Assembly (NCBI RefSeq): GCF_012274265.1
Contig: NZ_JAANYY010000002.1
Span: 124,001 to 188,000, forward strand
DNA from: Sphingopyxis microcysteis
GTDB lineage: Bacteria > Pseudomonadota > Alphaproteobacteria > Sphingomonadales > Sphingomonadaceae
Length of the DNA: 64,000 nucleotides
Reading direction: 5' to 3'
The notes beneath the pieces were generated by a model. It saw only the letters and a list, made by a program, of their open reading frames with translations, had not been told where the DNA came from and made no database searches. A program made the position numbers and the translations under genes. Positions 28,085-63,512 of the stretch are shown here, one piece after another (the stretch's first letter is position 1; each line of letters begins with the position of its first letter).

Positions 28085-28171
28085 GCCCAGATGGCGGAAT
28101 TGGTAGACGCACCAGCTTCAGGTGCTGGCGATCGCAAGGTCGTGGAGGTTCGAGTCCTCTTCTGGGCACCA
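28085..28171 (+). tRNA. tRNA-Leu (anticodon CAG)
   Basis: An 87-nt class II tRNA with encoded CCA. The acceptor stem GCCCAGA (28085-28091) pairs with TCTGGGC (28161-28167). The anticodon stem CCAGC/GCTGG holds a TTCAGGT loop with CAG at 28119-28121. There is a variable arm, and the T-loop is GGTTCGAGTCC. The integrase gene directly downstream makes its 3' half the probable attachment site. Confidence 0.95.
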
Positions 28172-28337: not shown

Positions 28338-29564
28338 ATGCCGCTGACCGAGACTCGGCTTCGAGCACTCAAACCAAAGGACAAGCCTTACAAGGTTGCT
28401 GACGACCGCGGATTGTACATTGAGGTCTCCCCAGCCGGCGGCAAACTCTGGCGATTCCGCTACCGGATCGGCCCGGTCGAAAAGAAGCTCTCGATCGGTG
28501 CCTACCCCGAGATCAGCCTCAAGCAGGCAAGGCAGACAGCCTATGAGGCGCGGCACAAGATCGCGTCCGGCGGCGACCCGGCGATGGAGAAGCGCAAGCA
28601 GAAGATTCGCGCCGAATTCCTCTCAGCCCAGACCTTCGAGGCAGTGGCGCGGGAGTACATCGATCAGATGATGGTGCAGAGTGGCAGGGCAGATGCCACC
28701 ATCGTGAAGGCCAACTTCTTCCTCGAGCAGCTGGCGGACGCGATTGGCAGCCGACCGATCGACGAGATCGAGCCGTTTGAAGTGCTCGCTCCTCTCAAGC
28801 GGCTCGAGGCCAAGGGTAAGCACGAGACCGCGAAGAAGACCCGGTCGTTTGCGAGCCGCGTATTCCGGTATGGCGTTGCCACCACGCGCTGCAAAGGCGA
28901 CCCCACGTCAATGCTTCGCGGGGCACTGATCACGCCAAAGGCAAAGCACTACGCCGCGATTCTCGAACCCAAGGAGCTTGGCGGGCTGCTACGAGCGATC
29001 CAGGACTACACAGGCAACTTCATCACTAGGTACGCTCTTCTCATCGCCCCTCACGTCTTTGTGCGGCCTGGCGAACTACGGCATGCCGAATGGAAGGAAA
29101 TCGACCTCGAAGAAGGTGTCTGGCGCATCCCTGAAGGCAAGATGAAGTCACGGCGCCCTCATGCCGTTCCGCTCTCGAAGCAGGTGATTGGCTACCTGAA
29201 AGAGCTCGCCGAGATGGTCGGAACCGAAGGTTATGTGTTCCCCTCGGCCCGTGCCTCTGTTCGCCCAATGAGCGAGAACACCTTGAATGCCGCCTTCCGC
29301 CGGATGGGATTCACCAAGGACGAGGTGACCGCTCATGGCCTGCGGGCAACCGCTTCCACTATGCTGAACGAAAGCGGCCTTTGGAACCCGGACGCGATCG
29401 AACGAGGATTGGCCCATGGCGACAGCAATGCCGTTCGCGGCGTCTATCACCGCGGTAAGCACTGGGAGGAACGGGTTCGCATGGCCCAGTGGTGGAGCGA
29501 TTATCTCGATACAATCCGAGAGGGTGGAAAAGTCATCAAGGGCGCGTTTGCGGGAAGAGGCTGA
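28338..29564 (+). CDS. P4-type tyrosine integrase
   Basis: A 408-aa site-specific recombinase that integrates and excises the element. The N-terminal arm-binding DUF4102 domain reads MPLTETRLRALKPKDKPYKVADDRGLYIEV. A SAM-like core-binding domain follows, then the catalytic domain with Arg243 (VRPGELRHAEW), His333-x-x-Arg336 (HGLRATAS) and the nucleophile Tyr370 (VYHRGKHWEERVRMAQWW). ATG 28338 is the family start; the frame open upstream is only the tRNA. It points away from the tRNA, as usual for this class. Confidence 0.95.
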   Translation: MPLTETRLRALKPKDKPYKVADDRGLYIEVSPAGGKLWRFRYRIGPVEKKLSIGAYPEISLKQARQTAYEARHKIASGGDPAMEKRKQKIRAEFLSAQTFEAVAREYIDQMMVQSGRADATIVKANFFLEQLADAIGSRPIDEIEPFEVLAPLKRLEAKGKHETAKKTRSFASRVFRYGVATTRCKGDPTSMLRGALITPKAKHYAAILEPKELGGLLRAIQDYTGNFITRYALLIAPHVFVRPGELRHAEWKEIDLEEGVWRIPEGKMKSRRPHAVPLSKQVIGYLKELAEMVGTEGYVFPSARASVRPMSENTLNAAFRRMGFTKDEVTAHGLRATASTMLNESGLWNPDAIERGLAHGDSNAVRGVYHRGKHWEERVRMAQWWSDYLDTIREGGKVIKGAFAGRG

Positions 29565-37843: not shown

Positions 37844-37893
37844 TGCCAAATGGCATTAATCAAGTTATATGATGCCATATGGAGAAATGCCAT
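37844..37893 (+). promoter_or_regulatory. Repeated operator of the toxin-antitoxin pair
   Basis: TGCCA-AA-TGGCA at 37844-37855, CCATATGG at 37875-37882 and ATGCCAT at 37872 and 37887 form a cluster of related inverted half-sites. It overlaps the ribosome site GGAG (37881-37884) and the antitoxin start. This is the expected position for autorepression by an Xre antitoxin. Confidence 0.6.
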
Positions 37894-40733: not shown

Positions 40734-40810
40734 GTTTTTAGCGGGTCGACTGACGAGTCGCGCATTTGACTGTCCCCGTCAAGGACGGAGGGCTTCCAGG
40801 AGACGAATCG

Positions 40811-41776: not shown

Positions 41777-41784
41777 GGTCCGCG

Positions 41785-42297: not shown

Positions 42298-43244
42298 TGC
42301 AGAACATGCCCGGCCTAGACGACCTTTTCGAACGTCGTCAGACCTACCCGGACTTTGAGCCGCAGGAACGTCTCGCGCGTCTCGTTGGTCTCGATGACCA
42401 GAAGTCCCGGCTCGCCAAGATCCTCGGTCTCCTCGTGAACCCGCAAGGGTTGGAGCGGTGGGCGACGAGCTTTCATGCAGCGGAAGCTCGGCCGCTGCTG
42501 GACGTTGTGCTACGGCGCCCGCCCCTAGTCGTGCTGGCCGGTGACGTTGGTTCCGGAAAGACGGAGTTGGCCGAGACGATCGGCGATGCGGTGGCTCGGC
42601 AGGAGGACATCGAAATCACGCTCTACCCGCTCAGCCTCGCGACGCGAGGCCATGGAAGGGTCGGCGAGATGACCCAGCTCCTGGCGGCCGCATTCGAGCA
42701 CACAGTGCAAGCTGCTAGCCGGCTGAAGTCGGGGGATAGATCGAAGGGCGGCATCATCCTGCTGGTCGACGAGGCCGACGCGCTGGCGCAGTCGCGCGAG
42801 GCAGCACAGATGCACCACGAGGACCGTGCTGGCGTTAACGCCTTCATCAGGGGCATCGACCGGCTGGCCAACCTGCGGCTCCCCGCCGCGGTGATCATGT
42901 GCACCAACCGCCTCAACGCGCTTGATCCTGCCGTGCGACGCCGTGCGGCGGACATCATGTCCTTTATGCGCCCGAACGAAGTCCAACGCCGCCACATTCT
43001 GTCGCTACGCCTCAGTCCGCTCGGTGTGAGCCCCACTGAGATTGAGGCGCTCGTGGCGGCGACCGGCGCGCGCGACGACGCACCAGGTTTCACCTTTTCG
43101 GATCTTGCTCAGCGACTGCTACCCGCGATCGCACTGGATGCCTACCCGGATAGGCCGATCCGGGGCGAACGGGCGCTGGAGATTGCCGAAGCCATGACGG
43201 CGACGCCGAAGTTCCGCGACGAGGTCGGAGGGACTGTGCGATGA
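42297..43244 (+). CDS. cap6: TRIP13/Pch2-like AAA+ ATPase (Cap6-type)
   Basis: A 315-aa AAA+ remodeller expected to unfold HORMA and switch the CD-NTase off. Walker A is GDVGSGKT at 82-89, Walker B IILLVDEAD at 153-161, sensor 1 MCTN at 201-204, and arginines RRR at 214-216 follow. The pore-loop-like segment ATRGHGRVGEMTQLL and ADIMSFMRPNEVQRRHIL fit the TRIP13 style. The ATG overlaps the HORMA stop by one base (TGATG) and its end overlaps the next gene by 4 bp, so translation of the three is coupled. Confidence 0.88.
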   Translation: MQNMPGLDDLFERRQTYPDFEPQERLARLVGLDDQKSRLAKILGLLVNPQGLERWATSFHAAEARPLLDVVLRRPPLVVLAGDVGSGKTELAETIGDAVARQEDIEITLYPLSLATRGHGRVGEMTQLLAAAFEHTVQAASRLKSGDRSKGGIILLVDEADALAQSREAAQMHHEDRAGVNAFIRGIDRLANLRLPAAVIMCTNRLNALDPAVRRRAADIMSFMRPNEVQRRHILSLRLSPLGVSPTEIEALVAATGARDDAPGFTFSDLAQRLLPAIALDAYPDRPIRGERALEIAEAMTATPKFRDEVGGTVR

Positions 43245-43969
43245 ACTGGTCGATCCAGATCCTTCTCTCGGAGTTGCACGACGAGATCCAAGAAAAGCTC
43301 GGCCGTGCCCGCAGGTCCTTCGGGCATCCTGGAACAAAGGGCGATGCGAGCGAGCAGGTCTGGCTGGAATTGCTGAATACCTATTTGCCTCAGCGGTACC
43401 AGGCGACATCGGCTCACGTGGTCGACAGCGTGGGCTCGTTCAGCGATCAGATCGATGTGGTCGTGTTCGATCGCCAATATTCCCCCTTCATCTTCAAATT
43501 CCAAGGCCAGACTGTCATCCCGGCTGAAAGCGTCTACGCGGTCTTCGAGGCGAAGCAGTCGATCAACGCAGAGCAGGTTGCTTACGCGAGGCAGAAGGTA
43601 GCAAGCGTTCGAGCGCTGCACAGGACGAGCCTTCCCATTCCCCATGCAGGCGGAACCTATCCGGCCAAGCCTCTCCAGCACATAATTGGGGGGATGCTCA
43701 CGCTCGAGAGCGATTGGAAGCCCGGCTTGGGTGATCCGCTTATCAAGGCCTTAGCGGAAGAGAACGTTGGCGGTCGGTTAGACCTGGGGTGTGTCGCTGC
43801 GCACGGCATCTTCTCTTGCGATGATGATGGATGCGGGATGTTCACGCTGATGAGTAAGCCGGCGACAGCTTTCCTCCTCGAGCTGATCGCGAGGCTCCAG
43901 GAGAAGGCCACCGTGCCGATGATCGACGTGAGGGCCTATGCCCGCTGGCTCGATGTCGACGTGGCCTAG
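43241..43969 (+). CDS. DUF6602 protein with PD-(D/E)XK-like residues, putative effector
   Basis: A 242-aa protein. SDQIDVVVFDRQYSPFIF and VYAVFEAKQSI place Asp72, Glu103 and Lys105 as in the catalytic core (D...E-x-K) of restriction-endonuclease-like folds, preceded by a helix with Glu38. This matches DUF6602, a family of unknown role. ATG overlaps the ATPase stop as ATGA. In type III CBASS the gene after TRIP13 is usually the effector (for example NucC), so this is the first effector candidate. Nuclease activity is inferred, and metal ligands should be verified. Confidence 0.75.
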   Translation: MNWSIQILLSELHDEIQEKLGRARRSFGHPGTKGDASEQVWLELLNTYLPQRYQATSAHVVDSVGSFSDQIDVVVFDRQYSPFIFKFQGQTVIPAESVYAVFEAKQSINAEQVAYARQKVASVRALHRTSLPIPHAGGTYPAKPLQHIIGGMLTLESDWKPGLGDPLIKALAEENVGGRLDLGCVAAHGIFSCDDDGCGMFTLMSKPATAFLLELIARLQEKATVPMIDVRAYARWLDVDVA

Positions 43970-43996
43970 TGGTGGCACTTGGAGCAGGGGGCGTTA

Positions 43997-45451
43997 ATGC
44001 CGAAGACCATATTGATATTCTCGGACGGCACTGGTCAGATCGGCGGTCTTCGCCCCGATCAGCGATTGTCCAACGTCTATAAGATGTATCGGTCGATGCG
44101 ACCGGGCCCGGACTCGCCGATAAGCCCCAAGGAACAGGTCGCGTTCTATGATCCCGGTCTGGGGGCAGGAGAGATCGGAGGCCTAACATTCAGACGAGTC
44201 CGCAACGTCCTCGCCGCCGCTGTTGGGACCGGCATCGATGAGAATGTGATCGACTGCTACGCGGCCGTGATCGCGAGATATGAGCTGGGCGATCGCATCT
44301 GCATCTTCGGCTTCAGCCGAGGGGCTTACACGGCGCGCTCGCTCGCCAACGTCCTGAACCTGTGCGGCGTGCCGACGCAAGACGCTGCCGGCGGCCCCGT
44401 CCCGCGCCACGGACCTGAGCTGCGGGCCATCGCCTCGGAGGGTGTGCGCAAGGTATACAATCACGGGGCCGGCGCAAAGCGCGAACGTTACGAGGCGGAG
44501 CGGGAGACGCTCGCCGCCCGCTTCCGTGCCAAATACGGTTCGGAGGCAACGGGTCAGGATGGCGAAGGTCAGGGGAACGTGCAGCCGGAATTCGTCGGGG
44601 TGTTTGACACGGTGGCCGCGCTCGGTAGCCGGGCCGCTACGACACTCGCCGCCATAGGCATGGCAGCGCTGATCGGCCTGACCTGGCTGGTCGCCGGCGT
44701 CGTGCCCTGGTGGGTGACGGCGCTCTTGGGCCTGCTGCCCGCCTCGGCTGCGTACTGGTTCGCCACGTCGCTCTGGTCACAGGTCAAGTTCTTCGCCAAC
44801 GAAACGACCTTCAGGCGCAGCAAGTGGGATCCTAGAGGTTGGCTGTCATTGATTAGGCACATGCATGTCGCGTGGTGGAGTGGCCGACACTACGATCGCT
44901 ATGTCGACAGGGAGATCCCCTATCTTAGGCATGCTCTCGCGATCGACGAGGACCGCGCGAAGTTTCCGCGGGTGGCTTGGGGGCGTCCCGCTGACGTTAC
45001 GTGGAATGAGCAGAGGGGACGTCCCGATTGGCTGGTGCAGGCGTGGTTTGCGGGTAACCATTCCGACATCGGCGGCAGCTATCCGGAAGAGGAGTCCCGC
45101 CTGTCCGATATCGCGTTGCGGTGGATGGTTGAGGAGTTGAAGCATGCGATGGGCGACGCCATCACGGTGCTGGATGATCGCCTCGTGACTTCGCCGGATC
45201 CGCTCGGCCTCCAGCACAGCGAGCGGACGGCGATGCTGAACTCGCAACCGGCGCTGCTCCGGAAGCTAACCTTTAACCGGCTGGTCTGGAGCTTGGCGAA
45301 GCGTGAGATCCATCCTGAAGCCATGCTCCACCCCACAGTGCTTGAGCGACTGGAGGCTGTCCAGGTCCCCCAAATGGGTAAGGTGGCGCCTTATCGGCCG
45401 GAAAGCCTGCGCAAGCACACGCTCGCCAGCCACCTGTACGATGAAGGGTGA
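43997..45451 (+). CDS. DUF2235/Tle1-like alpha/beta-hydrolase with membrane hairpin
   Basis: A 484-aa hydrolase. Start ATG 43997 follows GGAG; upstream TTG 43979 is less likely. FSDGTGQIGG is near the N-terminus. The nucleophile elbow is G-F-S107-R-G, the acid is probably Asp204 (GVFDTVAAL), and the base His355 (WFAGNHSDIGGSYPEE). Between Asp204 and His355 lie two membrane helices at about 213-235 and 237-258. The family includes T6SS phospholipases Tle1. Here it is placed in a CBASS operon, suggesting a membrane-damaging phospholipase effector. No T6SS genes are nearby. Confidence 0.86.
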   Translation: MPKTILIFSDGTGQIGGLRPDQRLSNVYKMYRSMRPGPDSPISPKEQVAFYDPGLGAGEIGGLTFRRVRNVLAAAVGTGIDENVIDCYAAVIARYELGDRICIFGFSRGAYTARSLANVLNLCGVPTQDAAGGPVPRHGPELRAIASEGVRKVYNHGAGAKRERYEAERETLAARFRAKYGSEATGQDGEGQGNVQPEFVGVFDTVAALGSRAATTLAAIGMAALIGLTWLVAGVVPWWVTALLGLLPASAAYWFATSLWSQVKFFANETTFRRSKWDPRGWLSLIRHMHVAWWSGRHYDRYVDREIPYLRHALAIDEDRAKFPRVAWGRPADVTWNEQRGRPDWLVQAWFAGNHSDIGGSYPEEESRLSDIALRWMVEELKHAMGDAITVLDDRLVTSPDPLGLQHSERTAMLNSQPALLRKLTFNRLVWSLAKREIHPEAMLHPTVLERLEAVQVPQMGKVAPYRPESLRKHTLASHLYDEG

Positions 45452-45456
45452 TTGCG

Positions 45457-46305
45457 ATGAGGACGATCTGGATGATCGCGACAATGGCGGCTGCTGTCCC
45501 TGCGGCGGCGAGCGCTAGGGACGCCGAGCTGCATACATTCCATTGTCTCCACGGTTGTCCGGTGGGAGCTCCCGGTACGAACGACGTCGTCGTACGCGAA
45601 ATCTACACGCTCTCGTCGAACGATCTGACCAAAATGGCGGACTGGGTCGCCTATCGCGTTACCAAAGAATCGATCGGACAATCCGGTGACCGCGACTGGC
45701 GCGCTGACCCATGGCTGGACGATGATGAGACTTTGGCGCCTGCCGCGTATGACATGGCCAGCGGAAAGCTGCACATCGATCGCGGTCATCAGGCGCCTCT
45801 TGCTTCCTTCTCAGGAACGCCGTCGGCGGCCGACACCAATATCCTGTCGAACATTACGCCACAGAGTTCGGCCCTGAACCAGGGGCCTTGGGTGCGTCTT
45901 GAGGACCGGGAACGCGAGATGGCCAAACGCCTCGGGGTGCCCGTCTACGTCCTGACGGGCCCGCTGTATGAGCGGATGATGCGACCACTCCCGAACGGCG
46001 GCGATTACCAGCGGGTGCCATCCGGATACTGGAAGGTGGTAGCGCTCGGCGATGGACGTGCGACGGCGTTCGTCTTTGACCAAGCCGCCTCGCGTGGAGA
46101 CGACGTCTGTGCGGCGAGAGTGTCCATCCGTCACGTCGAGTTGCGCAGCCGGCTCAGGCTTTTCCCGAACGCGACGAATGCACTGATGCCTCTCGATCTC
46201 GAACTCGGATGCAGCGAACAGGCGGTCATTGATCCAGCACCGTCGGTGATACCCGCCGAGAAGCGCTCCCTCCGGCGGCGCAGGGTCGAGGGGCCAGTTG
46301 ACTAG
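45457..46305 (+). CDS. Exported DNA/RNA non-specific endonuclease (NUC1 family)
   Basis: A 282-aa nuclease. ATG 45457 (or GTG 45448, overlapping the previous stop) gives a signal peptide, MRTIWMIATMAAAVPAAASA, with cleavage near residue 20. The beta-beta-alpha-metal signature DRGH is at 108-111 (catalytic His111), then NITPQSSALNQGPW with the metal-binding Asn. It reads as a periplasmic or secreted enzyme that degrades any DNA or RNA. Its place as the last gene of the CBASS operon is unusual. Confidence 0.9.
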   Translation: MRTIWMIATMAAAVPAAASARDAELHTFHCLHGCPVGAPGTNDVVVREIYTLSSNDLTKMADWVAYRVTKESIGQSGDRDWRADPWLDDDETLAPAAYDMASGKLHIDRGHQAPLASFSGTPSAADTNILSNITPQSSALNQGPWVRLEDREREMAKRLGVPVYVLTGPLYERMMRPLPNGGDYQRVPSGYWKVVALGDGRATAFVFDQAASRGDDVCAARVSIRHVELRSRLRLFPNATNALMPLDLELGCSEQAVIDPAPSVIPAEKRSLRRRRVEGPVD

Positions 46306-48658: not shown

Positions 48659-49043
48659 CCTGCTCTCCTTCAGCGTCAGCCTAGTGAGAGCTTCACCCCT
48701 GAGCAACCGCCCGCAAATCATTTCTCCACATTGACTTAGCGGAGAACCTAATTGGCACAATGCGCTTCAGGAGCAGTCGATGCCATGAACGAGAAAGGTG
48801 ACTTAGCCTTGCTAAAAAATCTTATTCCCGCGCGGGTTTTTCGAATAACGAACCAACCGCGGCTCGGGTCTGATGCGGGCCTAGGAGACTAATCGGTCAT
48901 TCCACAACCATGGGCATTCGACACTGCCCTTCGCTATCGGGAGATGTGCTGCGAACGCACTAGAGGGGAGTGGGCTTTGCCCTGATTAAGCCATATGGGC
49001 GTCGATGGTCGACGCGCCGGGCTCACAATCAGGAGTGTGTCCC
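48659..49043. other. Intergenic region upstream of parB
   Basis: 385 bp divergent between the TIR-ATPase and parB. It contains AT-richer sequence around 48810-48850 and the hairpin leader at 48962-48986. No gene was found. Confidence 0.5.
48962..48986 (+). promoter_or_regulatory. Hairpin leader upstream of parB
   Basis: AGAGGGGAGTGGGC-TTT-GCCC then TGAT, with the same layout as the leader before the helicase gene at 33530. A TCAGGAG ribosome site at 49029-49035 follows. Confidence 0.5.
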
Positions 49044-51032
49044 ATGATCAAGTCGATCCCGCTGAACAAGCTCGTCCAGTCTCCCCGCAATGTCCGCCGT
49101 CACAGTGACCCCGCTGCCGATGCCGAGCTCAAGGCCAGCATCGCAGCCCATGGGCTGCTGCAGAACCTTATCGTCTGGCCGGCCGCGAAGGGTAAGTTCG
49201 AGGTCGAAGCCGGCGAACGCCGCCGCCGCGCGATGCTGGCGCTCGCTTACGACAAGATCCTCGCCCGCGATCACGAAGTCACGTGCCTCGTGCTCGAGGA
49301 CAGCGCCGAAGTCGCGGTCGAGACCAGCCTCGCAGAAAACTTTCATCGCCTCGCCATGAACCCAGCCGATGAGGCCCAGGCCTTTGCCGCGCTCGTGGCA
49401 GGCGGTGCGACTGTTGAGGATGTTGCGCGCCGCTTCGGTCTGACCATTCGCTTCGTTGATGGCCGGCTGCGTCTCGCGAACCTTGCGCCTGTGGTGTTTG
49501 AGGCACTGGCATCCGGGGAAATCACCCTCGATATCGCCAAGGCCTTCGGCGCGACCTCGGACCAGGACATCCAGGCCCGGGTGTTCGAGCAGGTTTCCTC
49601 GGCCTACTACGCACCCAATCCTGACAGCATCCGGCGCATGGTCCTCTCGGGCACTGTCCGGGGCAGCGATCCGCGCGCCCGTCTCGTTGGCCGCGATGCC
49701 TACATTGCCGCGGGCGGCCGGATCGAGCGTGAGCTGTTCGACAACGACGACAGCGAATCCTGGGTCGATTTTGCGCTGCTCGAAAGCCTTGCCGCCGCGA
49801 AGATGGAAGAGCAGGCCAAAGCTCTCGCCGCCGAGCAGGGTTTTGCCTGGGTCAAGCCGACGCTCGATCCCTATGCCAGCCACGATCTGGTCGAAGGGCT
49901 GGTCCGGCTTCCTGCCGAACCGGCGCCATTGACCGACGCAGAATTGGCGAGGCTCGACGAACTCGATGCCTCCTATGACGAGCATGCGGCGATCCTCGAG
50001 GATGAGGACAGTGCCGAGGAGGCGGTGGCAGCCGCCGAAGCGGCGATCGAGGCGATAGAACGCGAATGCCAGGAAATCCGAGCTCGCCCGCCCGTCATCG
50101 CAGCTGACCTCAAGGCCGAAGCAGGTATGATCCTGGTGCTATCGCGCGATGGCACGCCGGTTCTCCAGCCGGTGTTCTATGGCGAGCGTCAGGCTGAACC
50201 CGCAGAACCCGATGACGGGATCGAAGTCGTTGCAGGCGAAGAAGGTTCGGACAGGCGTCGGACCACCTTGTCGAAACGTCTGGTTGACGAACTTGCGATG
50301 CAGCGCCGCGATGTTCTGGCACTTCACGTTGCATCCGATCCCGGGCTGGCGCTCGACATCATGATCTTCACCCTCGCCGATGCCGATACCCACGATTGGT
50401 GGGCGCGCCCTTCGACCACGCTACGCGCGCCAGTTCCGGCAGGCCCGATCATCGGCTTCGAAGCCAAGGATGCGCCGGCGAGCAGCGCGCTTGCTGAGTT
50501 CAGATCCGGCCTCGACGAAAGCTGGCGTGCCGGTTCCGAAGCGACGTCCCGCTTCGATCTCTTCCGTGCGCTGCCCGATGACAGCCGCGCGGCCTGGCTG
50601 GGCTATGTCGTCGCCCGTTCGCTCGAGGCAAGCCTCAACATGGCGGGAGAGCGTCAGCTGCCGTTCCAGGACCATCTCGGCAGCCTGATCGGTATCGACA
50701 TGGCGCAGTGGTGGCGACCGACAGCAGTCAACTACTTCGACCGGGTATCGAAGCAGGTGATCCTCGACGCGCTGACCGATGTCGGCGGCATCGAGCTCTC
50801 CTCGCGCTTTGCCTCGGTCAAAAAAGGTGATCTCGCGATGAGCGCCGAGCGCGTATTCGCCGGCACCTACATCACCGAGGTCGAGGTTCGCGAGAAGGCC
50901 CTGGCCTGGGTGCCTGAGGTCATGCGCTTCGCTCGCCCTACGCCGGAGGCGGGCGAAGCCGAGATCGACGCAAGCGACGCTGAGCCTGGTGTCGACGGCG
51001 AAATTCATACCCCCCGCGAGCTGGCCGCCTGA
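49044..51032 (+). CDS. ParB/Spo0J-family protein
   Basis: A 662-aa protein with an N-terminal ParB domain (IPLNKLVQSPRNVRRHSDPAADAELKASIAAHGLLQNLIV; FEVEAGERRRRAMLAL; VEVALAENF-like segment) and a central HTH (VARRFGLTIRFVDGRLRLANL). The long acidic C-terminal half (DEHAAILEDEDSAEEAVAAAEAAIEAIERE) is typical of large ParB-like proteins on plasmids and ICEs. It may bind sites on the element for segregation or transcription control. No ParA is adjacent. Start ATG 49044 with TCAGGAG upstream. Confidence 0.9.
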   Translation: MIKSIPLNKLVQSPRNVRRHSDPAADAELKASIAAHGLLQNLIVWPAAKGKFEVEAGERRRRAMLALAYDKILARDHEVTCLVLEDSAEVAVETSLAENFHRLAMNPADEAQAFAALVAGGATVEDVARRFGLTIRFVDGRLRLANLAPVVFEALASGEITLDIAKAFGATSDQDIQARVFEQVSSAYYAPNPDSIRRMVLSGTVRGSDPRARLVGRDAYIAAGGRIERELFDNDDSESWVDFALLESLAAAKMEEQAKALAAEQGFAWVKPTLDPYASHDLVEGLVRLPAEPAPLTDAELARLDELDASYDEHAAILEDEDSAEEAVAAAEAAIEAIERECQEIRARPPVIAADLKAEAGMILVLSRDGTPVLQPVFYGERQAEPAEPDDGIEVVAGEEGSDRRRTTLSKRLVDELAMQRRDVLALHVASDPGLALDIMIFTLADADTHDWWARPSTTLRAPVPAGPIIGFEAKDAPASSALAEFRSGLDESWRAGSEATSRFDLFRALPDDSRAAWLGYVVARSLEASLNMAGERQLPFQDHLGSLIGIDMAQWWRPTAVNYFDRVSKQVILDALTDVGGIELSSRFASVKKGDLAMSAERVFAGTYITEVEVREKALAWVPEVMRFARPTPEAGEAEIDASDAEPGVDGEIHTPRELAA

Positions 51033-51107: not shown

Positions 51108-51199
51108 TTGGAAGCAGAGCAGAGGGGGCCCGTGAACCTGTGGCACTGACCGGCGAACCCGTCGCCGACTGTCCGGATGCCTCAATCAGGAGACCCATC

Positions 51200-52141
51200 A
51201 TGGCCTATCGCAAGGGGCAGAGCAGCGGCTTGTCGCCCGCCGCCCGTATCACCCAGGAAATCATCGCCCGTCTGGAAGCAGGCACGAAGCCATGGATCAA
51301 GCCGTGGCGCGGTGTCCCGGTCTCCCGGCCCTTGCGGGCCTGTGGGATTCCGTACCGGGGCATGAACGTGTTCTGGCTTTGGATGGTCGCCGACATGTGC
51401 GGCTACGCCTCGCCATTCTGGATGACCTACAATCAGGCAAAGTCGCTCGGGGCCCAGGTCCGCAAGGGCGAGAAGTCGACCATCGCGATCTTCTACAAGA
51501 GCTACACCAAAGAGGTCGAAGCGCCCGATACCGGCGAAAAGACCGATGAAGCCCGCCGGGTGCTGAAAGCCTATCCGGTCTTCAATGCCGATCAGGTCGA
51601 AGGGCTGCCTGAGCGCTTCCATCCTGCCGCGACGTTGGAACTGGTCGAGCCTGAAGGGCGCGCGTCCGAGCTCGACGCCTTCTTTGCGGCCATCCCCGTC
51701 AATCTGCGTCACCAGGGCTGCGAAGCCTATTACGAGCCAAGTGCGGATCGCGTCACGATGCCGCCGGTCAGCCTGTTCAATGGCTTCGATCACTATTACG
51801 CCACGCTCGCGCACGAGCTGTCGCACTGGACCGGCCATGTCAGCCGCCTGGGACGCGATCTCAAGAACCGCTTCGGCACGGCGGCCTATGCCGCTGAGGA
51901 ACTGGTCGCGGAACTCTCCAGCGCGATGCTGGGCGCCGAGCTGGGCTTGCCGGTCACGCACCTCGACAGCCACGCAAGCTATATCGAGCATTGGCTCAAG
52001 CTTCTGAAAGACGATGACCGCGCCATCCTGACCGCTGCAGCAAAGGCCGAAGAGTCATCGAGCCTGCTCCTGAAGCTCGGCGGGAGGGCGATGCCTGAAC
52101 AGTTTGACGACGCGTCAGACGACGCGGCGCTTGCGGCCTGA
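51200..52141 (+). CDS. ArdC-like antirestriction protein
   Basis: A 313-aa protein with an N-terminal ssDNA-binding ArdC domain (ITQEIIARLEAGTKPWIKPW; PYRGMNVFWLWM; SLGAQVRKGEKSTIAIFYK) and a C-terminal zincin-like metallopeptidase domain with HELSH at 205-209 (LAHELSHWTGH). ArdC proteins protect incoming single-stranded conjugative DNA from restriction. ATG 51200 has TCAGGAG at 51186-51192. It lies in the same orientation as parB, after its terminator, so it should have its own promoter. Confidence 0.92.
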   Translation: MAYRKGQSSGLSPAARITQEIIARLEAGTKPWIKPWRGVPVSRPLRACGIPYRGMNVFWLWMVADMCGYASPFWMTYNQAKSLGAQVRKGEKSTIAIFYKSYTKEVEAPDTGEKTDEARRVLKAYPVFNADQVEGLPERFHPAATLELVEPEGRASELDAFFAAIPVNLRHQGCEAYYEPSADRVTMPPVSLFNGFDHYYATLAHELSHWTGHVSRLGRDLKNRFGTAAYAAEELVAELSSAMLGAELGLPVTHLDSHASYIEHWLKLLKDDDRAILTAAAKAEESSSLLLKLGGRAMPEQFDDASDDAALAA

Positions 52142-55157: not shown

Positions 55158-55547
55158 ATGACCAATCTCGTTATTCTCGTTGGCCGCATCGCTCGCGACC
55201 CCGAAACCCGCACCACCCAAGGTGGAACCAGCATCACCTCAATCTCGGTCGTGACCGACCGTCCCGCCCGCAAGGATGGTAAGACCTACAAGGACGAAAA
55301 CGGCTACACTGCCAAGGACAGCGAATTCCACCGGATCACCTGCTTCAACGGCCTGGGCCAGAACGTCGCCAAGTACTGCACCAAGGGCCAGCTCGTGACG
55401 GTCGAAGGGCGCATCCACTACACCCAGTGGGAAGATCAGAGCGGCGCCAAGCGCTACGGCTGCGAGATCATCGCCGACAAGGTCGACTTCCTCACCAAGG
55501 GCCGTTCGAGCAGCAACGAGGGAGCCCCCGACATCGACGAGGACTGA
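55158..55547 (+). CDS. ssb: Single-stranded DNA-binding protein
   Basis: A 129-aa SSB with an OB-fold: MTNLVILVGRIARDPETRTTQGGTSITSISVVTDRP, FHRITCFNGLGQNVAKYCTKGQLVTVEGRIHYTQWEDQSGAKRYGCEIIADKVDFL. The tail is acidic (GAPDIDED) but lacks the canonical DDDIPF tip. It would protect transfer-strand DNA during conjugation and replication of the element. A strong terminator follows. Confidence 0.94.
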   Translation: MTNLVILVGRIARDPETRTTQGGTSITSISVVTDRPARKDGKTYKDENGYTAKDSEFHRITCFNGLGQNVAKYCTKGQLVTVEGRIHYTQWEDQSGAKRYGCEIIADKVDFLTKGRSSSNEGAPDIDED

Positions 55548-56640: not shown

Positions 56641-56921
56641 ACCCTCTCGCAGCTTGTAGACTGAGCACACCGTACGCAGTGACACTGCTGGATTTAAGGA
56701 AGGTATTTCAGCGTGATAGGCGAAATTTTAGGGCTGGTGTCAAACCAATTCAATCGTGAAGCATGCTTCAGATTGGCAATTTGCGGGCAAATTGAAGCCA
56801 GTCAAACCATTGATAGTATTCGCACATTTCGCGGTTGACGGGTTTATGTTCCTGATTTATTCTCATCCCTGTCTTCCGCAAGATCAAGCTAGGTTCGCAA
56901 GGGTCAATAGGACCCCCGAAC
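56641..56921. other. Candidate origin of transfer (oriT)
   Basis: An AT-rich region without a gene between the small acidic gene and the RHH-coupling protein-relaxase cluster. It contains a perfect 14-bp palindrome TGAAGCATGCTTCA (56757-56770), a perfect 8-bp inverted repeat CAATTTGC-GG-GCAAATTG (56777-56794) and GTCAAACC...GGTTGAC around 56801-56840. MobF systems such as R388 place oriT in this position. The nick site was not identified. Confidence 0.6.
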
Positions 56922-57251
56922 ATGGATCGGCATCTCAGTCTTCAGACCTACGTTCCCCGCCCACTTGCTGACTGGATAAAGGGCAAGGCCCGGGACCAGC
57001 AGGTCTCCGTCAGCATCGTCATTCGCGACCAGTTGATCGACGCATGGCAGCGTGAAAACGAAGCGCGAAAGCGGCCTGCGGCGCTCGACCCGGTGCGGCA
57101 GAACCTCTTCATCACGGTTGCCCTGGATGCGCTTCTGGCCAGCCATACCGATGGTTCGTTGAGGCAGCGCACGCACGAAGCCTACAATCGTCGTCTCGTC
57201 CGTCTCGGGCTCAGCGCCTCCACACCCGAAGGAGGCAGCGATGAAGCGTAA
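56922..57251 (+). CDS. Ribbon-helix-helix-like relaxosome accessory protein (TrwA-like position)
   Basis: A 109-aa protein, MDRHLSLQTYVPRPLADWIKGKARDQQVSVSIVIRDQLIDAWQREN. The N-terminus reads like a ribbon-helix-helix DNA-binding domain (strand, helix A, turn, helix B), and a C-terminal helical part follows. In R388, TrwA holds this position and helps bind oriT. ATG 56922 follows the oriT candidate. Its end overlaps the coupling-protein gene by 11 bp. Confidence 0.75.
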   Translation: MDRHLSLQTYVPRPLADWIKGKARDQQVSVSIVIRDQLIDAWQRENEARKRPAALDPVRQNLFITVALDALLASHTDGSLRQRTHEAYNRRLVRLGLSASTPEGGSDEA

Positions 57252-59571
57252 TCTCCTCAATTTCACCCGCGGCAGCCAGCTCCTCGGACACTTCGGTTTC
57301 ATGTTCGCAGCGGGGCTCAAAGGCCCCCTGCTGGTGACCTTCCTGGTCAGCGCCTGGCTTTGCTATCTTGAGGTGACGTCCACGCTCACCGATCACCAGG
57401 TCTATCTCGCCTGGATGCATGTCTATGCCTCCGGCTACGCGTTCATGGAGTTCGATCCCGGCAAGCTGGTGGAACTCAAATTGGCCGGTGGCGGAACTGT
57501 CCGCATCCCTTTCAATGTCGTGCGCGATTTTCCGCCCATGCGCGAAGCCTGGAGTGCACTCGGCGCCGCCATCCGGCGCGGTATCGGGCTTTCCGCGCTT
57601 GTCCTGATCCCGGCCTTTGCTGCCTTCTGGTGGTTCGCTGAGCGGTTCGGAGGCAAGTCCAAGGAGCGTAAGCACGAGCGCGGGGCGATACTCGTCACGC
57701 TGGACGAACTCGAAGCGGAGATCGACCGGCACAATCGCGCCGAACGTGCCCGCGAACTGCACGCAGCGCTAGGGTGGAAATGGCGTTTGGCAGGCGCAGC
57801 AGCGACCAAGGAAGCAGGCTTCTACAGTCCGGCACATCTCGCGGGCGTCTCCTGGCCGTGGCGTCTCGAGCAAAGCCATACCATGCTGATCGGCACGACT
57901 GGCACCGGCAAGACGGTTGCCCTCAGCCAACTCCTTGCCGAGTCCCGGGCACGCGGACAGCGCGCCGTTGTTTTCGATCTTACCGGAGCTTTCATCGAGA
58001 CCTTCTACGATCCGACCCGCGACATCATTCTGAACCCGCTCGATGCCCGTTGCCCGAACTGGAGCGTATTCAACGATTGCACCAGCGAAGGCGAATTCCA
58101 TGCCGCAGCCGAGGCGCTGGTTCCGCACGATGGCGGTGGTTCCGAGCAGTTCTGGGTGCTCGCAGCCCGCATGCTTTTCGTGGAAATGTGCCTGCATCTC
58201 CAGCGCACCGGTCAGGCCAGCAACCAGGCGCTTGCCACTCGCCTCATGACCGCCGACCTCGCGCAGGTGCACAAGCTTATGCGCGGCACCATGGCCGATC
58301 CGCTGACAGCGCCAGAAGCCGCGCGCATGGCAGAATCAATCCGCGCCGTGTTTAACGCCAACGCCAAGGCACTGAAGCTGCTACCCGCTAAAGGCCCCCG
58401 CTTTTCGGTACGGGACTGGATCCGCGGCAGCTCCCAATCGGGATCAATCCTGTTCCTCTCTGCGCGCTACGTCGACATGTCGATCTGTTCGCAGCTGCTC
58501 ACCTTGTGGCTCGACACGGCCATGAACACGCTGATGACCATGGAGCGCACGCCCGATCTCAGGGTCTGGTTTCTGATCGACGAACTGGGCGCGTTGCACC
58601 GGCTGCCCGCACTGGAGAAAGGCCTGCAGACCGCACGCAATTTTGGCGGTGCGATCGTCACTGGCGTCCATGCCTTTGCCAAGCTCAAGGAGGTCTACGG
58701 CGAGAACATGGCGATGACCTTGTCATCGCTCGCGCGCAGCAAGCTGATCCTCGCCACTGCGGACCGGGAAACGGCCACCTGGTGTTCCGACTTCATCGGT
58801 CATCGCCAGGTCCGCGACATGGAGGAAGGGTACAGCTACGGTTATAACAATGCCCGCGACGCCGTCAGCCTGACGCCCCGTCGCCAGATTGAGCCGTTGC
58901 TGCTGCCCGATCAGTTCATGAACCTGCCGAGGCTTTCCGGTTACCTCAAGTTCCCCGACGGATTTCCTGCCGCTCCGGTCACGCTTGTCCCGCGCCGCTG
59001 GCCGCGGATGGCCGAGGGATTCATCGCGCGGGCACTCGGGCCTGCTCCCGGGGCACACGCGGCGGATGAGACCAATGTCGATCCCTCGGAATGGGCCTCC
59101 TTGCCTGCCGAAGCTGCCGACGGCGCCCCGGCCGCGAATGACGACGGCGCCGGCAAGCCGGTCGTTCCCGAGCAGTTGAAGTTGGACCTTCAGCGTGTTG
59201 TCAGGACGCCGGATGAGACAGGGAATGTGACTAAGCAGCGGTTCTCCAAAGCCCCTGCACAGGTCTTGCGGGTAGCGCCCGAACAAGGCCAGGTCGAAAC
59301 ATCGGCCGAAGCGCTCACGAGTTCTGGGCCGACTACAACCTTGCCTCCCGGGCCGCTTCTTTCCGGCAGAAGTGAAGCGACCGATGAGACGCAGCCATCC
59401 CCCGATGAAAAGGCGTCGGCGCGAGGAGACAAGCCAGCTTCAGGCGATCCGAAGCTAATCCCGGTCGCACGATCGCAGGACAGTCAGAGCCCCCGAGAAC
59501 GGGCCGAACGAGACCTGCTCGAGGGCGGCGTCGAGAGCGGGGCGCAAGACTTCTACGAACCCGACCTTTGA
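57241..59571 (+). CDS. Type IV coupling protein (TraD/TrwB family)
   Basis: A 776-aa inner-membrane ATPase that brings the relaxosome to the secretion channel. It has N-terminal membrane helices (about residues 25-50 and a second near 120-140), Walker A in LIGTTGTGKTVALSQ (about 216-226), Walker B in VWFLIDELGAL (about 443-453) and ATADRETATWCSDFIGH. The last ~180 residues are a low-complexity acidic tail. ATG 57241 has GGAGGCAGCG upstream, inside the RHH gene end. The following gene is the relaxase, 44 bp on. Confidence 0.94.
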   Translation: MKRNLLNFTRGSQLLGHFGFMFAAGLKGPLLVTFLVSAWLCYLEVTSTLTDHQVYLAWMHVYASGYAFMEFDPGKLVELKLAGGGTVRIPFNVVRDFPPMREAWSALGAAIRRGIGLSALVLIPAFAAFWWFAERFGGKSKERKHERGAILVTLDELEAEIDRHNRAERARELHAALGWKWRLAGAAATKEAGFYSPAHLAGVSWPWRLEQSHTMLIGTTGTGKTVALSQLLAESRARGQRAVVFDLTGAFIETFYDPTRDIILNPLDARCPNWSVFNDCTSEGEFHAAAEALVPHDGGGSEQFWVLAARMLFVEMCLHLQRTGQASNQALATRLMTADLAQVHKLMRGTMADPLTAPEAARMAESIRAVFNANAKALKLLPAKGPRFSVRDWIRGSSQSGSILFLSARYVDMSICSQLLTLWLDTAMNTLMTMERTPDLRVWFLIDELGALHRLPALEKGLQTARNFGGAIVTGVHAFAKLKEVYGENMAMTLSSLARSKLILATADRETATWCSDFIGHRQVRDMEEGYSYGYNNARDAVSLTPRRQIEPLLLPDQFMNLPRLSGYLKFPDGFPAAPVTLVPRRWPRMAEGFIARALGPAPGAHAADETNVDPSEWASLPAEAADGAPAANDDGAGKPVVPEQLKLDLQRVVRTPDETGNVTKQRFSKAPAQVLRVAPEQGQVETSAEALTSSGPTTTLPPGPLLSGRSEATDETQPSPDEKASARGDKPASGDPKLIPVARSQDSQSPRERAERDLLEGGVESGAQDFYEPDL

Positions 59572-59615
59572 GGGCACCACAGCAAGGGGGCACCTTGCTT
59601 GAAGGGCCATAAGCC

Positions 59616-62525
59616 ATGCTCTCGGTTGCCAATGTCCGGTCCGCGTCCGGCGCAGCCAGCTACTTTGCTGCTGACAATTACTACGCAAGCGCAGACGCGG
59701 ATCGCTCAGGCCAATGGGTTGGGTCAGGAGCCGATGCCCTTGGCCTTTCCGGAGCGGTCGATGCCACAGTCTTCGACAAGCTCCTCAAGGGCGAGCTTCC
59801 GGATGGCACCAGGGTCGGTCACGAAAACCAGCACCGAGCCGGCACCGACCTGACCTTTTCCCTGCCCAAGAGCTGGTCGGTCCTCGCCCTCGTCGGCGAC
59901 GACAAGCGGATCATTGAGGCCTACCGCGAGGCCGTGGTGGAAACGCTCCAGTGGGCCGAGAAGAATGCGGCAGAAACGCGTCTCGTCGAAAACGGGAAGG
60001 TGCGGACCGTGCAGACCGGCAATCTCACCGTGGCGCTGTTCCAGCACGATACCAATCGCAACCAGGAGCCCAACCTCCATTTCCATGCCGTCATCGCCAA
60101 CGTCACGAAAGGTGCTGATGGCAAATGGCGGACGCTGAAGAACGACCGGCTCTGGTCACTCAATACCCTTCTCAACAGCATGACGATGGCGCGCTTCCGT
60201 CTCTCGGTCGAGAAGCTCGGTTATGAAGTCGGTCCTGTCGGCAAGCACGGGAACTTCGAGGCGGCGGGCTTTTCTCGCGACCAGGTCATGGCTTTCTCCA
60301 CAAGGCGACAGGAGGTTCTGGACGCACGCCGCGGCCCAGGCCTTGAAGCGGGCAAGATCGCTGCCCTCGATACCCGCAGCGCCAAACAAACCGTCGCCGA
60401 TAGGGGCGCCCTGACGGCGGATTGGCAGGACCACGCCCGGGCAGCAGGGCTCAACTTGCAGGCCATGATTGAACGAGCACAGAGCCACTCGTATTCCTCG
60501 CAGCACGCACCCGCGGCTGGCACCAGCCTGATCGAGCGCGGCAGGGCCTGGCTCAGGGACTTTGCCGAGCGCATCAGGGGCAATCCTGCCGATCCACTGA
60601 TCCCGGCTCACGTCCTTAAGCAAGACCGCGAGACCATCGCCGCAGCCCAGGCTACAGCGTCAGCGGTACGCCACCTCTCGCAGCGCGAAGCGGCCTTTCC
60701 GCGCGAGGCCCTGTTCAAATCGGCGCTGGATTTTGGTCTGCCGACAACCATGGGCGCCATTGAGCAGCGGGTCAGCTCGCTGGTCCGTTCGGGCGAACTC
60801 GTTCCAGGGTCAGGTGAACACAAGGGCTGGCTGACCTCGCGTGATGGGCTCGCGAGCGAGCATCGCATTCTCGCCGCGGTCGAAGCCGGGAGGGATGCCG
60901 TTGCTCCTCTTCTCGGGAGCAATGAGGCAGGCCCACGAGTCAAGGCCGTCGCTGCCATCAATCACGGCATCGACCTCAATGGTGGCCAAGAAGCGGCCGC
61001 CCGCGTGATCCTCAGCTCGTCCCACCGGACAATCGCCATCCAAGGTGTCGCCGGTGCGGGCAAGAGCAGTGTTATGAAGCCCGTGGCACAGATCCTCGGC
61101 GAGGAAGGCAAGGAGATCATCGGGCTCGCCGTTCAGAACACTCTGGTGCAGATGCTGGAGCGCGACACCGGTATTCGCTCGATGACTTTGGCTCGCCTGC
61201 TCAAGAGCTGGGCACCGCTGCTGGAGGATCCTGGCAATCCCGGTTTGATGGCCGAGGCGAAAGCCGCATTGGGCGACCGGGTCCTCGTCCTTGATGAGGC
61301 CTCGATGGTCTCGAACAGCGACAAGGAGCGTCTGGTCACGCTGGCCAATCTGGTTGGCGCGCGCAGGCTTGTGCTTGTTGGCGATGCCCGCCAACTCGGC
61401 GCGGTCGATGCCGGCAAACCGTTTGATCTCGTCCAGAAGGCTGGCATCGCGCGCGCCGAAATGACGACCAACCTGCGCGGCCGGGATCCGCAACTGCGTC
61501 TGGCCCAGGCTGCTGCGCAAACGGGTAACGTGGAAACCGCACTTGGTCATCTCAAGAACTCGACGATCGAGACATCGGGCGACAGCGCTTTTACGGCTGC
61601 CGAGCAATGGCTCCAGCTTGCGCCGCTCGAGCGCGAGCGGACCGCGATTTACGCCTCGGGGCGGGCCTTGCGAACCGCAGTCAACGAGGCTGTCCAGCGA
61701 GGGCTCAAAGCCAACGGTGAGCTCGGCAAAACCTCGCTCGACCTGACCGTACTGTCACGGGTCAATGCAACGCGTGAGGAGCTCCGCTATGTCTCGGCAT
61801 ACCGCCCGGGCATGGTCCTCGATGTTCGGAGCCCCGATAAACATCAGCGGCTCCCACGCGGCGAATACAAGGTCGACAGGATCGACGAGAAGACGCGCGA
61901 GGTGTTCCTCGTCGATGGCAAAGGTAAGGCACGAACCCTTCAGCCGAGCCGGATCCGTCCCGGTGCGAAGGACGATCGCCTTGCGCTCTTCGAGGAGAAG
62001 CGGCTGTCGATCCATGCCGGTGACCGGATCCGGTGGACCGAGAATGATCATCGCCGAGGACTATTCAATGCTGACCAGGCAAGGATCGAGGCCGTTGAAG
62101 GTTCTCGAGTGACTGTGGTCACCTCTACGGGCCTACGGCACGAGTTGGAGCGCTCTGACCCGATGCTCAGGCGGCTTGACCTCGCGTACGCGCTCAATGC
62201 CCATATGGCGCAAGGTTTGACTTCGGATCGAGGTATTGCTGTCATGGATAGCCGGGAGCGCAATCTGGCCAATCAGCAAACCTTTCTCGTGACCGTGACT
62301 CGGCTGCGGGACCACCTGACGCTCGTCGTCGACAGTGCGGACAAGCTTGGAAGGGCAGTATCGCAGAACACCGGTGAGAAGACCTCGGCGCTGGAAGTGA
62401 CCGAGCGTCTGCGAGAGGCTGCAGCGAGAGGCCAGGCTGCCGGGTCACCAAGCAAGGAGGATCTTTCCAAAAAGCCGCCAGAACTGGTCAAGGAGCGTAC
62501 CAAGCCATTCGAAATCGGTATTTAA
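59616..62525 (+). CDS. MobF-family conjugative relaxase/helicase (TrwC/TraI-like)
   Basis: A 969-aa bifunctional protein that nicks oriT and unwinds the plasmid-like DNA. The N-terminal relaxase domain has tyrosines Tyr16, Tyr22, Tyr23 (SYFAADNYYAS) and the metal-binding His triad His144, His155, His157 (HDTNRNQEPNLHFHAVI). The spacing of 11 and 2 residues equals that of TrwC. The C-terminal SF1 helicase has Walker A GVAGAGKSSV at about 477-486, DEASMVSN, VLVGDARQLGAVDAG and the C-terminal RITRL-type region. Length is normal for MobF. Confidence 0.95.
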   Translation: MLSVANVRSASGAASYFAADNYYASADADRSGQWVGSGADALGLSGAVDATVFDKLLKGELPDGTRVGHENQHRAGTDLTFSLPKSWSVLALVGDDKRIIEAYREAVVETLQWAEKNAAETRLVENGKVRTVQTGNLTVALFQHDTNRNQEPNLHFHAVIANVTKGADGKWRTLKNDRLWSLNTLLNSMTMARFRLSVEKLGYEVGPVGKHGNFEAAGFSRDQVMAFSTRRQEVLDARRGPGLEAGKIAALDTRSAKQTVADRGALTADWQDHARAAGLNLQAMIERAQSHSYSSQHAPAAGTSLIERGRAWLRDFAERIRGNPADPLIPAHVLKQDRETIAAAQATASAVRHLSQREAAFPREALFKSALDFGLPTTMGAIEQRVSSLVRSGELVPGSGEHKGWLTSRDGLASEHRILAAVEAGRDAVAPLLGSNEAGPRVKAVAAINHGIDLNGGQEAAARVILSSSHRTIAIQGVAGAGKSSVMKPVAQILGEEGKEIIGLAVQNTLVQMLERDTGIRSMTLARLLKSWAPLLEDPGNPGLMAEAKAALGDRVLVLDEASMVSNSDKERLVTLANLVGARRLVLVGDARQLGAVDAGKPFDLVQKAGIARAEMTTNLRGRDPQLRLAQAAAQTGNVETALGHLKNSTIETSGDSAFTAAEQWLQLAPLERERTAIYASGRALRTAVNEAVQRGLKANGELGKTSLDLTVLSRVNATREELRYVSAYRPGMVLDVRSPDKHQRLPRGEYKVDRIDEKTREVFLVDGKGKARTLQPSRIRPGAKDDRLALFEEKRLSIHAGDRIRWTENDHRRGLFNADQARIEAVEGSRVTVVTSTGLRHELERSDPMLRRLDLAYALNAHMAQGLTSDRGIAVMDSRERNLANQQTFLVTVTRLRDHLTLVVDSADKLGRAVSQNTGEKTSALEVTERLREAAARGQAAGSPSKEDLSKKPPELVKERTKPFEIGI

Positions 62526-62603: not shown

Positions 62604-63512
62604 GTGAAGGGCGTTTTCGAGGTCAGCGGCAATTCGCGGTACGATGACGCGATCACCGAGCGGTATCACTTTCCGAGCAATTACCTTTCGGTTGCGCGAG
62701 AGCTTGAGAGCGACTGGATCGTCTACCGCGAGACGCGAGTTTCTGGCGGTCGCATGGCCTATTTCGCTGCGGCCTTCGTCGAGCGCATCGATGCCGACCC
62801 GAGCGATCCTAGCCACTTCTATGCGCGCGTGCGCGACTACCTCGAGTTCGATCAGCCCGTTCCCTACCGCGACGGCAGCGGTCGGTTTGCCGAGCGGTTC
62901 CTGCGCGAGATGGCACGGCCTGGCGATGCTGGACGAAGCCTCCGCGGCAAGTCGGTCCGCAGGCTGGAAAACGAGGATTTCGTGGCCATCGTCAATGCGG
63001 GTCTTGCCGAAACTCTCGATCCCGAAAACCGCATCAGACTGGAGCTCGATGCCCCCCGCATCGATCCGGAGACCAATCTGCTTCTGCACGATCAGTTCGC
63101 GGAGCGGCGGGTCGAGCAGATGCTCGTCAACCGCAAGATTCGTGACGCGAACTTCCGCAACCATGTCCTCGATGCGTACGAGAACACCTGCGCCGTGACC
63201 GGGCTTAGGATCGTCAATGGCGGCGGCAAGGCAGAAGCGCAGGCCGCGCACATCTGGTCGGTCGCCGATGGCGGTCCTGACATCATCCAGAACGGGGTCG
63301 CCTTGTCAGCAACAGCCCATTGGCTGTTTGATCGACATCTGATCACCTTCGACGACAACCTCTGTCTGCTCGTGTCACACAACAAGGTGCCGTCCGAGCT
63401 TCTTCAGCTGTTTCCGCCCGCGGGGCAGCAAATCCGGCTGCCGCGTGATCGCGCGCTGCATCCAAGGGCAGACTTCGTGGCCCGCCACCGGGAGCGATTT
63501 GCAGGGATCTGA
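62604..63512 (+). CDS. HNH endonuclease (HNH_2 type)
   Basis: A 302-aa protein from GTG 62604. The N-terminal ~200 residues look like the WYL/restriction-associated region seen in HNH_2 proteins. The C-terminal nuclease has CAVTGLRIVNGGGKAEAQAAHIWSVADGGPDIIQNGVALSATAHWLFDRHLITFDDN, with the AHI, NG and HWLFDR positions of the HNH_2 motif. Such proteins can be putative restriction endonucleases, including modification-dependent ones. It ends 10 bp from the S24 gene, convergent. Confidence 0.88.
   Translation: MKGVFEVSGNSRYDDAITERYHFPSNYLSVARELESDWIVYRETRVSGGRMAYFAAAFVERIDADPSDPSHFYARVRDYLEFDQPVPYRDGSGRFAERFLREMARPGDAGRSLRGKSVRRLENEDFVAIVNAGLAETLDPENRIRLELDAPRIDPETNLLLHDQFAERRVEQMLVNRKIRDANFRNHVLDAYENTCAVTGLRIVNGGGKAEAQAAHIWSVADGGPDIIQNGVALSATAHWLFDRHLITFDDNLCLLVSHNKVPSELLQLFPPAGQQIRLPRDRALHPRADFVARHRERFAGI

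Follow-up and report, generated by a model that had tools for sequence, protein, structure and literature searches.

The 64,000-nucleotide window analysed here, positions 124001-188000 of contig NZ_JAANYY010000002.1 (C1) of Sphingopyxis microcysteis, contains a compact operon for the processing of conjugative DNA. It consists of three consecutive genes on the plus strand (Table 1), which encode a small protein resembling ribbon-helix-helix (RHH) proteins, a coupling protein of the TraD/TrwB type and a MobF relaxase-helicase of the TraI/TrwC type. The first two genes overlap by 11 bp, whereas the second and third are separated by 44 bp. An initial annotation had placed such an operon on a chromosomal element, and this was borne out by the domain matches and by its position in what is most likely an integrative and conjugative element (ICE) inserted in a tRNA-Leu gene. 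Upstream of the operon we predict an origin of transfer (oriT), the nic core of which appears in related ICEs and plasmids to be the integration site of islands with two tandem tyrosine recombinase genes.

The relaxase possesses a helicase domain, as expected of F-like elements that combine a MOBF relaxase with a mating-pair formation system of type F (MPF_F). It scores higher with F-type TraI (325 bits with the full-length entry 5n8o, 206 bits with the domain entry 1p4d) than with TrwC (187 bits); three further TraI entries gave 159 bits. The coupling protein also matches the F-type TraD model, below the cut-off of that model, and a TraD match is likewise present at 102 of the 106 related loci with an RHH gene. 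No Pfam match was found for the protein of 109 amino acids (aa). Its structure model, which is weak (predicted template modelling score 0.40), contains helices at residues 13-26 and 30-49, and the top Foldseek rows all have E>0.1 and are individually non-significant, many of them being RHH proteins. The protein is likely a relaxosome accessory factor and the counterpart of TrwA/TraY.

Table 1 Features of the window, with positions counted from its first letter
Feature	Position	Strand	Evidence
Predicted nic core, transferred strand (T-strand) 5'-GTACGGTGT/GC-3', plus strand GCACACCGTAC	56665..56675	-	conservation and comparison with the F nic
Predicted relaxase-recognition hairpin GCAGTG-T-CACTGC (T-strand)	56676..56688	-	covariation
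RHH-like protein, 109 aa	56922..57251	+	no Pfam match; structure model and Foldseek
TraD/TrwB-type coupling protein, 776 aa	57241..59571	+	TrwB_AAD_bind, 533 bits
MobF relaxase-helicase (TraI/TrwC type), 969 aa	59616..62525	+	TrwC relaxase, 275 bits
Palindrome 1, GAAGCATGCTTC	56758-56769	unstranded	not conserved
Palindrome 2, CAATTTGC-GG-GCAAATTG	56777-56794	unstranded	not conserved
tRNA-Leu(CAG)	28085..28171	+	ARAGORN
ICE left end, attL (3' end of tRNA-Leu)	28152-28174		DNA match
ICE tyrosine integrase	28338..29564	+	Pfam Phage_integrase and Arm-DNA-bind_3 on a longer open reading frame; start codon chosen from sequence
ParB-like gene, leading region	49005..51032	+	Pfam ParB_N
ArdC-like anti-restriction gene, leading region	51140..52141	+	Pfam ArdcN and MPTase-PolyVal
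Single-stranded DNA-binding protein (ssb), leading region	55158..55547	+	Pfam SSB on part; start codon chosen from sequence

The initial annotation expected an oriT just upstream of the operon. This is supported by a conserved block at 56665-56688, in which a predicted core of 11 nt is preceded on the T-strand by a hairpin. The nick is predicted between minus-strand positions 56667 and 56666, and the hairpin ends 9 nt before it. For comparison, 80 of 158 relatives were taken from a scan of genome contigs, and 298 genomes were surveyed, of which 56 contained a total of 72 RHH matches; 30 of these were fetched. RHH genes are present in 106 of the 111 sequences compared, the window included (they are missing in L015, L068, L077, L079 and L080). 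Of these 106, 105 have a core of the form G[CGT]ACACC[CG][TG]AC as a single copy within the 400 bp before that gene; the sole miss, L063, is a sequence that ends 124 bp upstream. The 106 rows include the window and duplicates, 96 being distinct. A nic model derived from such sites has a match 194-248 bp upstream and on the same strand for 66 of the 72 RHH matches in the 298 genomes. The exact pattern has no second copy in 140 kb of the contig that holds the ICE, and the model has one match only in the whole genome; thus no better oriT was found elsewhere in the element.

The hairpin is supported by covariation. In an alignment of 55 nic segments 89.8% of the cells are paired (71.4% in shuffled alignments), 64 cells are changed on both sides (16.4 in shuffles) and the score is 0.560 (0.205 in shuffles); none of 500 shuffles was as high on any of the three values. 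When the partner was slid by 1-3 columns, the paired share fell to 18.8-59.9%. The imperfect hairpins of L122, L123, L115, L117 and L053 were kept in the count, as were the CCCG-type rows (L025 and its kin), in which pairing is shifted by one alignment column and so counts against the structure there; one of 56 segments (L118, alike to L114 and L119) was left out. The T-strand of F reads ...TTTTTGC-GTGGGGTGT-GG, that is a hairpin followed by GTGGGGTGT/GG with the same spacing of 9 nt. The 11 conserved bases of the core have the same size as the footprint of the F TraI relaxase domain, which is reported to span 11 nt from −2 to +9 (PMC12117103). Judged by its sequence, the nic of the window thus looks more like that of F, with a hairpin 9 nt 5' of the nick, than like that of R388, and an R388-like nic was not found in it.

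In several relatives the core occurs twice. A 22-kb block in the ICE of genome G148 is flanked to the left and right by sequence that, in 500-bp windows, is mostly 98-100% identical to the ICE of G130, some stretches being at 83-97%. The block itself (22.29 kb) is mostly 100% identical in G148, G060 and G298 (Croceicoccus); the trailing side of G060 and G298 differs from that of G148 (about 69-82% in G298). Another nic core, oriented like the first, is found at −22291, −22291 and −22289 in the three genomes that share the block and at −14148 in G130, and two tyrosine recombinase genes start just inside this second copy. The flank left of the recombinase-side copy equals the flank of unoccupied relatives: L157 has ggtagactga, as in the window's clade, L156 and L160 have ggaacagtgg, L162 and L159 have gggaacaaagga or gggaacaaggga, and L161 has ggggacagaggt. 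The islands are thus inserted into the nic site of conjugative elements, are bordered by direct repeats of the core and carry an oriT-like hairpin of their own. Those read at both ends measure 5 to 24 kb, the smallest being 5.3 kb (G301); that of G308 would be about 41 kb by coordinates, not read through. A relaxase like that of the window was absent from nine islands (tblastn), and ten proteins from three islands contained no relaxase domain. The nic of the window is an unoccupied target site. As to the history of individual islands, the nic-to-nic length is 22,289-22,291 bp in G148, G060, G298 and G006, three of them with different genus codes, and the identity is about 100% in the three that were compared; this island has spread very recently. 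An 8.1-kb segment is found on the leading side in G148 and on the trailing side (8.1-16.3 kb) in G130 and may be a separate transposable unit.

The association of nic and recombinase extends beyond these examples. The first recombinase was found in 12 of the 13 searched genomes with the two exchanged leading families, the exception being G039 (a contig of 4.7 kb). In 11 of the 12 the core stands directly before it, and in 11 of the 12 it shares a contig with the traD-side nic. Among 13 other searched genomes there is an intact relative in G304 and there are fragments in G307, each beside a core; the remaining ones have no recombinase above 45% identity. Across the 298 genomes a same-strand nic precedes 23 of 26 first recombinases by 3-352 bp, a second direct nic follows 6.1-22.3 kb further on in 14 of these 23, and an RHH gene comes next in ten of the 14. 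These 26 are the rows with at least 45% identity out of 44, the rest being mostly second genes, and the nic-model rows were cut at E of about 0.0025, so that G134, whose matches are weaker, could not score. The 135 model matches used comprise 66 beside RHH genes, 23 beside recombinases and 46 that are near neither. Pairs of matches in opposite orientation, 3-9 kb apart, were also seen (G208, G041, G099, G187, G032 and G015).

Plasmids show the same arrangement. Among the records with homologues of the recombinase P0001, 15 of 29 were looked at. In a set of eight homologues on sphingomonad plasmids (at least 47% identity), which was not used for the nic model, six have a core with no or one mismatch 30-204 bp upstream; L229 and L231 have none there. 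In Aurantiacibacter atlanticus a further nic core with an integrase follows the first island. More distant homologues (33.5-38.3% identity) are found on three plasmids of Shewanella baltica, on the megaplasmid of S. oneidensis MR-1 and on p1 of Vibrio crassostreae. In all five the recombinase island is flanked on either side by an F-type nic, CACACCCCACGC (CACACCACG in Vibrio). The two copies are direct and lie 6.8, 8.2, 9.3, 11.0 and 24.0 kb apart, and no relaxase is annotated between them, the annotation being incomplete. In seven Shewanella plasmid records (NC_009999, NC_009661, NC_009998, NZ_CP146611, NC_011665, NC_017572 and NC_011668) the matches to the left and the right border overlap by 13 bp at nic; by this junction they are empty sites. 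The homologue on a Leisingera plasmid has no core upstream, and Vibrio europaeus gave no pair. The cargo of two of these islands is worth recording: that of V. crassostreae p1 (L237 and L240; 14527-38488 of the record) contains darobactin genes and a type I restriction system, and the 11.0-kb island of the MR-1 megaplasmid (L238) encodes bacteriocin-like peptides with an ATP-binding cassette (ABC) exporter.

Some observations weigh against integration of islands at a relaxase-recognised nic. The core at the island end is decayed in G305, and in G178 the recombinase and the traD-side nic are on different contigs. Three of the 26 recombinases have no nic nearby in the nic list used, and nine of the 23 lack another copy of nic up to 60 kb away on their contig; some of these stand at contig ends, the one in G162 does not. 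Furthermore, the nic model was trained on part of the sites that were later counted, and several recombinase-bearing plasmids are not typed MOBF (for example, YBL2 and MR-1 are MOBP and P6W has no type). The number of column pairs of the hairpin with change on both sides (4, against 3.2 in shuffles) is not above chance. Finally, leading flanks have changed in L099, L115, L117, L124, L118 and L086, in whose genomes no P0001-type recombinase was found.

The exchange of flanks was quantified over 4371 pairs of 94 loci, with L066 and L098 left out. In 108 pairs, which are not independent of each other, one side of nic is alike and the other unlike (15 alike on the leading side, 93 on the trailing side), and 23 of 24 leading-flank families placed on the TraD tree need 30 changes where the minimum is 22. 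Our first explanation, oriT recombination made by the relaxase or transfer from tandem ICEs, was replaced by island integration when tandem recombinases were seen beside the second nic. The strongest of the alternatives is still that the relaxase itself exchanges the flanks by site-specific recombination between two oriTs, with the tyrosine recombinases as passengers. The best breakpoint falls between −2 and +17 from the core start, on the presumed footprint of the relaxase, in 92 of the 108 discordant pairs, TrwC is reported to perform such a reaction (PMC3264647), and some exchanged flanks lack a P0001-type recombinase, as described above. However, F TraI is reported in the same paper to be unable to recombine oriTs (PMC3264647), in 23 of 26 cases the first recombinase lies immediately within one of the nic copies, where an integrase is usually found relative to its attachment site, and the right island ends have a conserved tail in common. 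We consider a relaxase-made exchange improbable. Ordinary homologous recombination within the ICE, for which nic would be a breakpoint by chance or by conservation, is very unlikely: such exchange among ICEs is common and the other 16 discordant pairs (six with L058, seven with L086, two with L049 and one more) break elsewhere, but both ends of the block are nic, the sizes range widely and borders of the same kind, with junctions of 13 bp, are seen on the Shewanella plasmids.

The initial annotation had favoured an oriT of the R388 type, located at two palindromes in front of the RHH gene. The order RHH protein, coupling protein and MobF relaxase beside an oriT is indeed that of trwA-trwB-trwC, and the relaxase is with 969 aa close to TrwC (962 aa from coordinates). 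The palindromes exist as described, but they were rejected as oriT; by eye, in an 11-row alignment of the closest sequences that includes the window, the first is intact in 2/11 and the second in 3/11, and a conserved, covarying block sits instead some 70-90 bp upstream of them. Palindrome 1 is possibly a site of the RHH protein. The gene overlaps do not agree with R388, the genes of which are 1 and 11 bp apart. A histidine triad H-x10-H-x-H is present; the same spacing is reported for TraI of pKM101 (H149, H160 and H162; PMC9868005), so that the triad does not single out TrwC. In a comparison with both oriTs the nine bases before the nick agree with F at seven and with R388 at six positions. 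The stretch ATTTAAGGA, common to R388 and the window, was dropped as a signal because it varies within the window's own clade. Since the secretion genes are F-type as well, the R388-like description was too narrow, and an R388-like oriT at the palindromes can practically be set aside.

We conclude that, very probably, the region is the DNA-processing module of an F-like ICE with a MOBF relaxase and F-type secretion and nic serves in related ICEs and plasmids as the attB of mobile islands. From the site, its covariation, the island borders, the empty sites and the recombinase position, all of which are read from sequence, we infer the following course for the nick itself, the direction of transfer, the integration by the recombinases and the movement of islands by the host relaxase. 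The RHH protein and the relaxase would assemble at 56665-56688, where the relaxase would read hairpin and core and cut the minus strand at GTACGGTGT/GC. The T-strand would leave toward ssb, ardC and parB, the leading region, which would enter first; traI, traD and the RHH gene would form its end, with traI entering last. This direction is deduced from the strand and from the known polarity of F-like transfer. In occupied relatives the tandem recombinase pair would integrate the island at the nic core, giving a direct repeat of the core at both island ends. The left copy would have the island's own hairpin and the right copy would keep that of the host. As each copy has a hairpin, both would look like relaxase substrates, and an island circle, carrying the core and its own hairpin, would look like an oriT.

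It is quite possible, although we stop short of calling it probable, that the islands are satellites in which a single short sequence doubles as attachment site and transfer origin, that they form a relaxase-free family with two recombinases, spread over F-like nic sites of Alpha- and Gammaproteobacteria, and that the host relaxase could move the island or the ICE alone. If this is true, a transfer that starts at the host-side nic and stops at the island nic would send the island alone as a circle without excision, and a start at the other nic would transfer the conjugative element and leave the island behind. Whether a two-nic arrangement can let a relaxase move part of an element without excision thus becomes a testable question. 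In addition, a base-level prediction of nic is provided for a widespread ICE group and related plasmids, and other mobile DNA is seen to land in those 11-13 bp of F-like transfer origins that are under the strongest constraint, also on the megaplasmid of the laboratory strain MR-1.

The element around the operon has what an ICE is expected to contain, namely an integrase, att repeats at a tRNA gene, a relaxase, a coupling protein and secretion genes. The integrase gene comes after tRNA-Leu(CAG), and the 23-bp tRNA-end copy recurs outside the window as a DNA match at C1:247912-247934; the element therefore measures about 95.8 kb and extends beyond the window. Ten proteins of C1:220955-238739 were scanned for secretion functions, and all ten match F-type models (TraG, TraH, TraF, TrbC, TraU, TraW, TraC, TraB, TraK and TraE); hence an ICE that mates through an F-type system is the most likely reading of the element. 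Five of them (TraF-like, TrbC, TraU, TraW and TraC) exceed the curated cut-off, and the TraK match is weak. The MPF_T genes of an R388-type module were not found in this set. A copy of the leading-region gene ssb near nic was also found in two of nine islands read (tblastn). Further cargo includes a Xre/RES toxin-antitoxin pair at 37850-39036 and, at 40766-46305, a cluster resembling a cyclic-oligonucleotide-based antiphage signalling system (CBASS) with a SMODS nucleotidyltransferase (barely above the cut-off), a bacterial HORMA protein, an AAA ATPase, DUF6602, a Tle1-like phospholipase domain and an NS-type endonuclease. Directly 3' of the relaxase gene an HNH protein (62604-63512) is a relative of phosphorothioate-dependent restriction enzymes, with a score that stays under the curated cut-off for their model. 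Beyond the window, between relaxase and secretion genes, C1:188500-220625 contains a run of very large open reading frames (up to 2133 aa), possibly defence cargo.

With the F plasmid the ICE has in common the nic sequence and spacing, the similarity of the relaxase and the F-type secretion genes. It differs by the compact RHH-traD-traI operon beside oriT, by a shorter relaxase (969 against 1756 aa) and by its integration in a tRNA gene. R388 is alike in gene order, relaxase length and the small first gene, but is typed MPF_T, has other gene spacings and has a different nic region, TATTGTCTATAGCC. The proposal that the nic belongs to a new host group did not hold: the sphingomonad MOBF/MPF_F plasmids pBSY17_2, p2 and pSA2 share the traD-mobF order and have a related nic. 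In pBSY17_2 and p2 a small gene precedes traD, and the core (one mismatch) and hairpin lie 250-251 bp before this small gene; in pSA2 their distance from traD is 542 bp. These plasmids differ in not being ICEs and in their relaxase, which is 45% identical in the best among the matches listed. A literature search, judged mostly from titles and the beginnings of abstracts, gave no such islands in Proteobacteria, and no mapped nic was found in it for this ICE group; one of the papers found concerns another Sphingobium plasmid (PMC3516476).

For the islands the oriT-mimicking genomic islands of SXT are one point of comparison, which likewise are reported to lack conjugation genes and to carry a helper-like oriT (PMC5704250). 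These are described as integrating at chromosomal genes such as yicC, whereas here the oriT mimic would be the attachment site inside the helper. The nearest precedent is given by the streptococcal integrative and mobilizable elements termed IME_oriT, which are reported to integrate in the oriT of MobT ICEs and to use their own relaxase (PMC7563843; PMC5704250). Both have a tyrosine integrase that targets the nic region of an ICE oriT, and varied cargo. According to these reports, the genes of IME_oriT include those for an integrase and for a Rep_trans relaxase of their own, and the elements reside in MobT ICEs of Firmicutes. The islands described here, in contrast, have two tandem recombinase genes, a Rep_trans (MobT-like) or other relaxase was not found in those examined, and they are situated in MOBF ICEs and plasmids of Alpha- and Gammaproteobacteria. 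They would thus represent a two-recombinase, apparently relaxase-less variant of IME_oriT-like elements at F-like nic sites.

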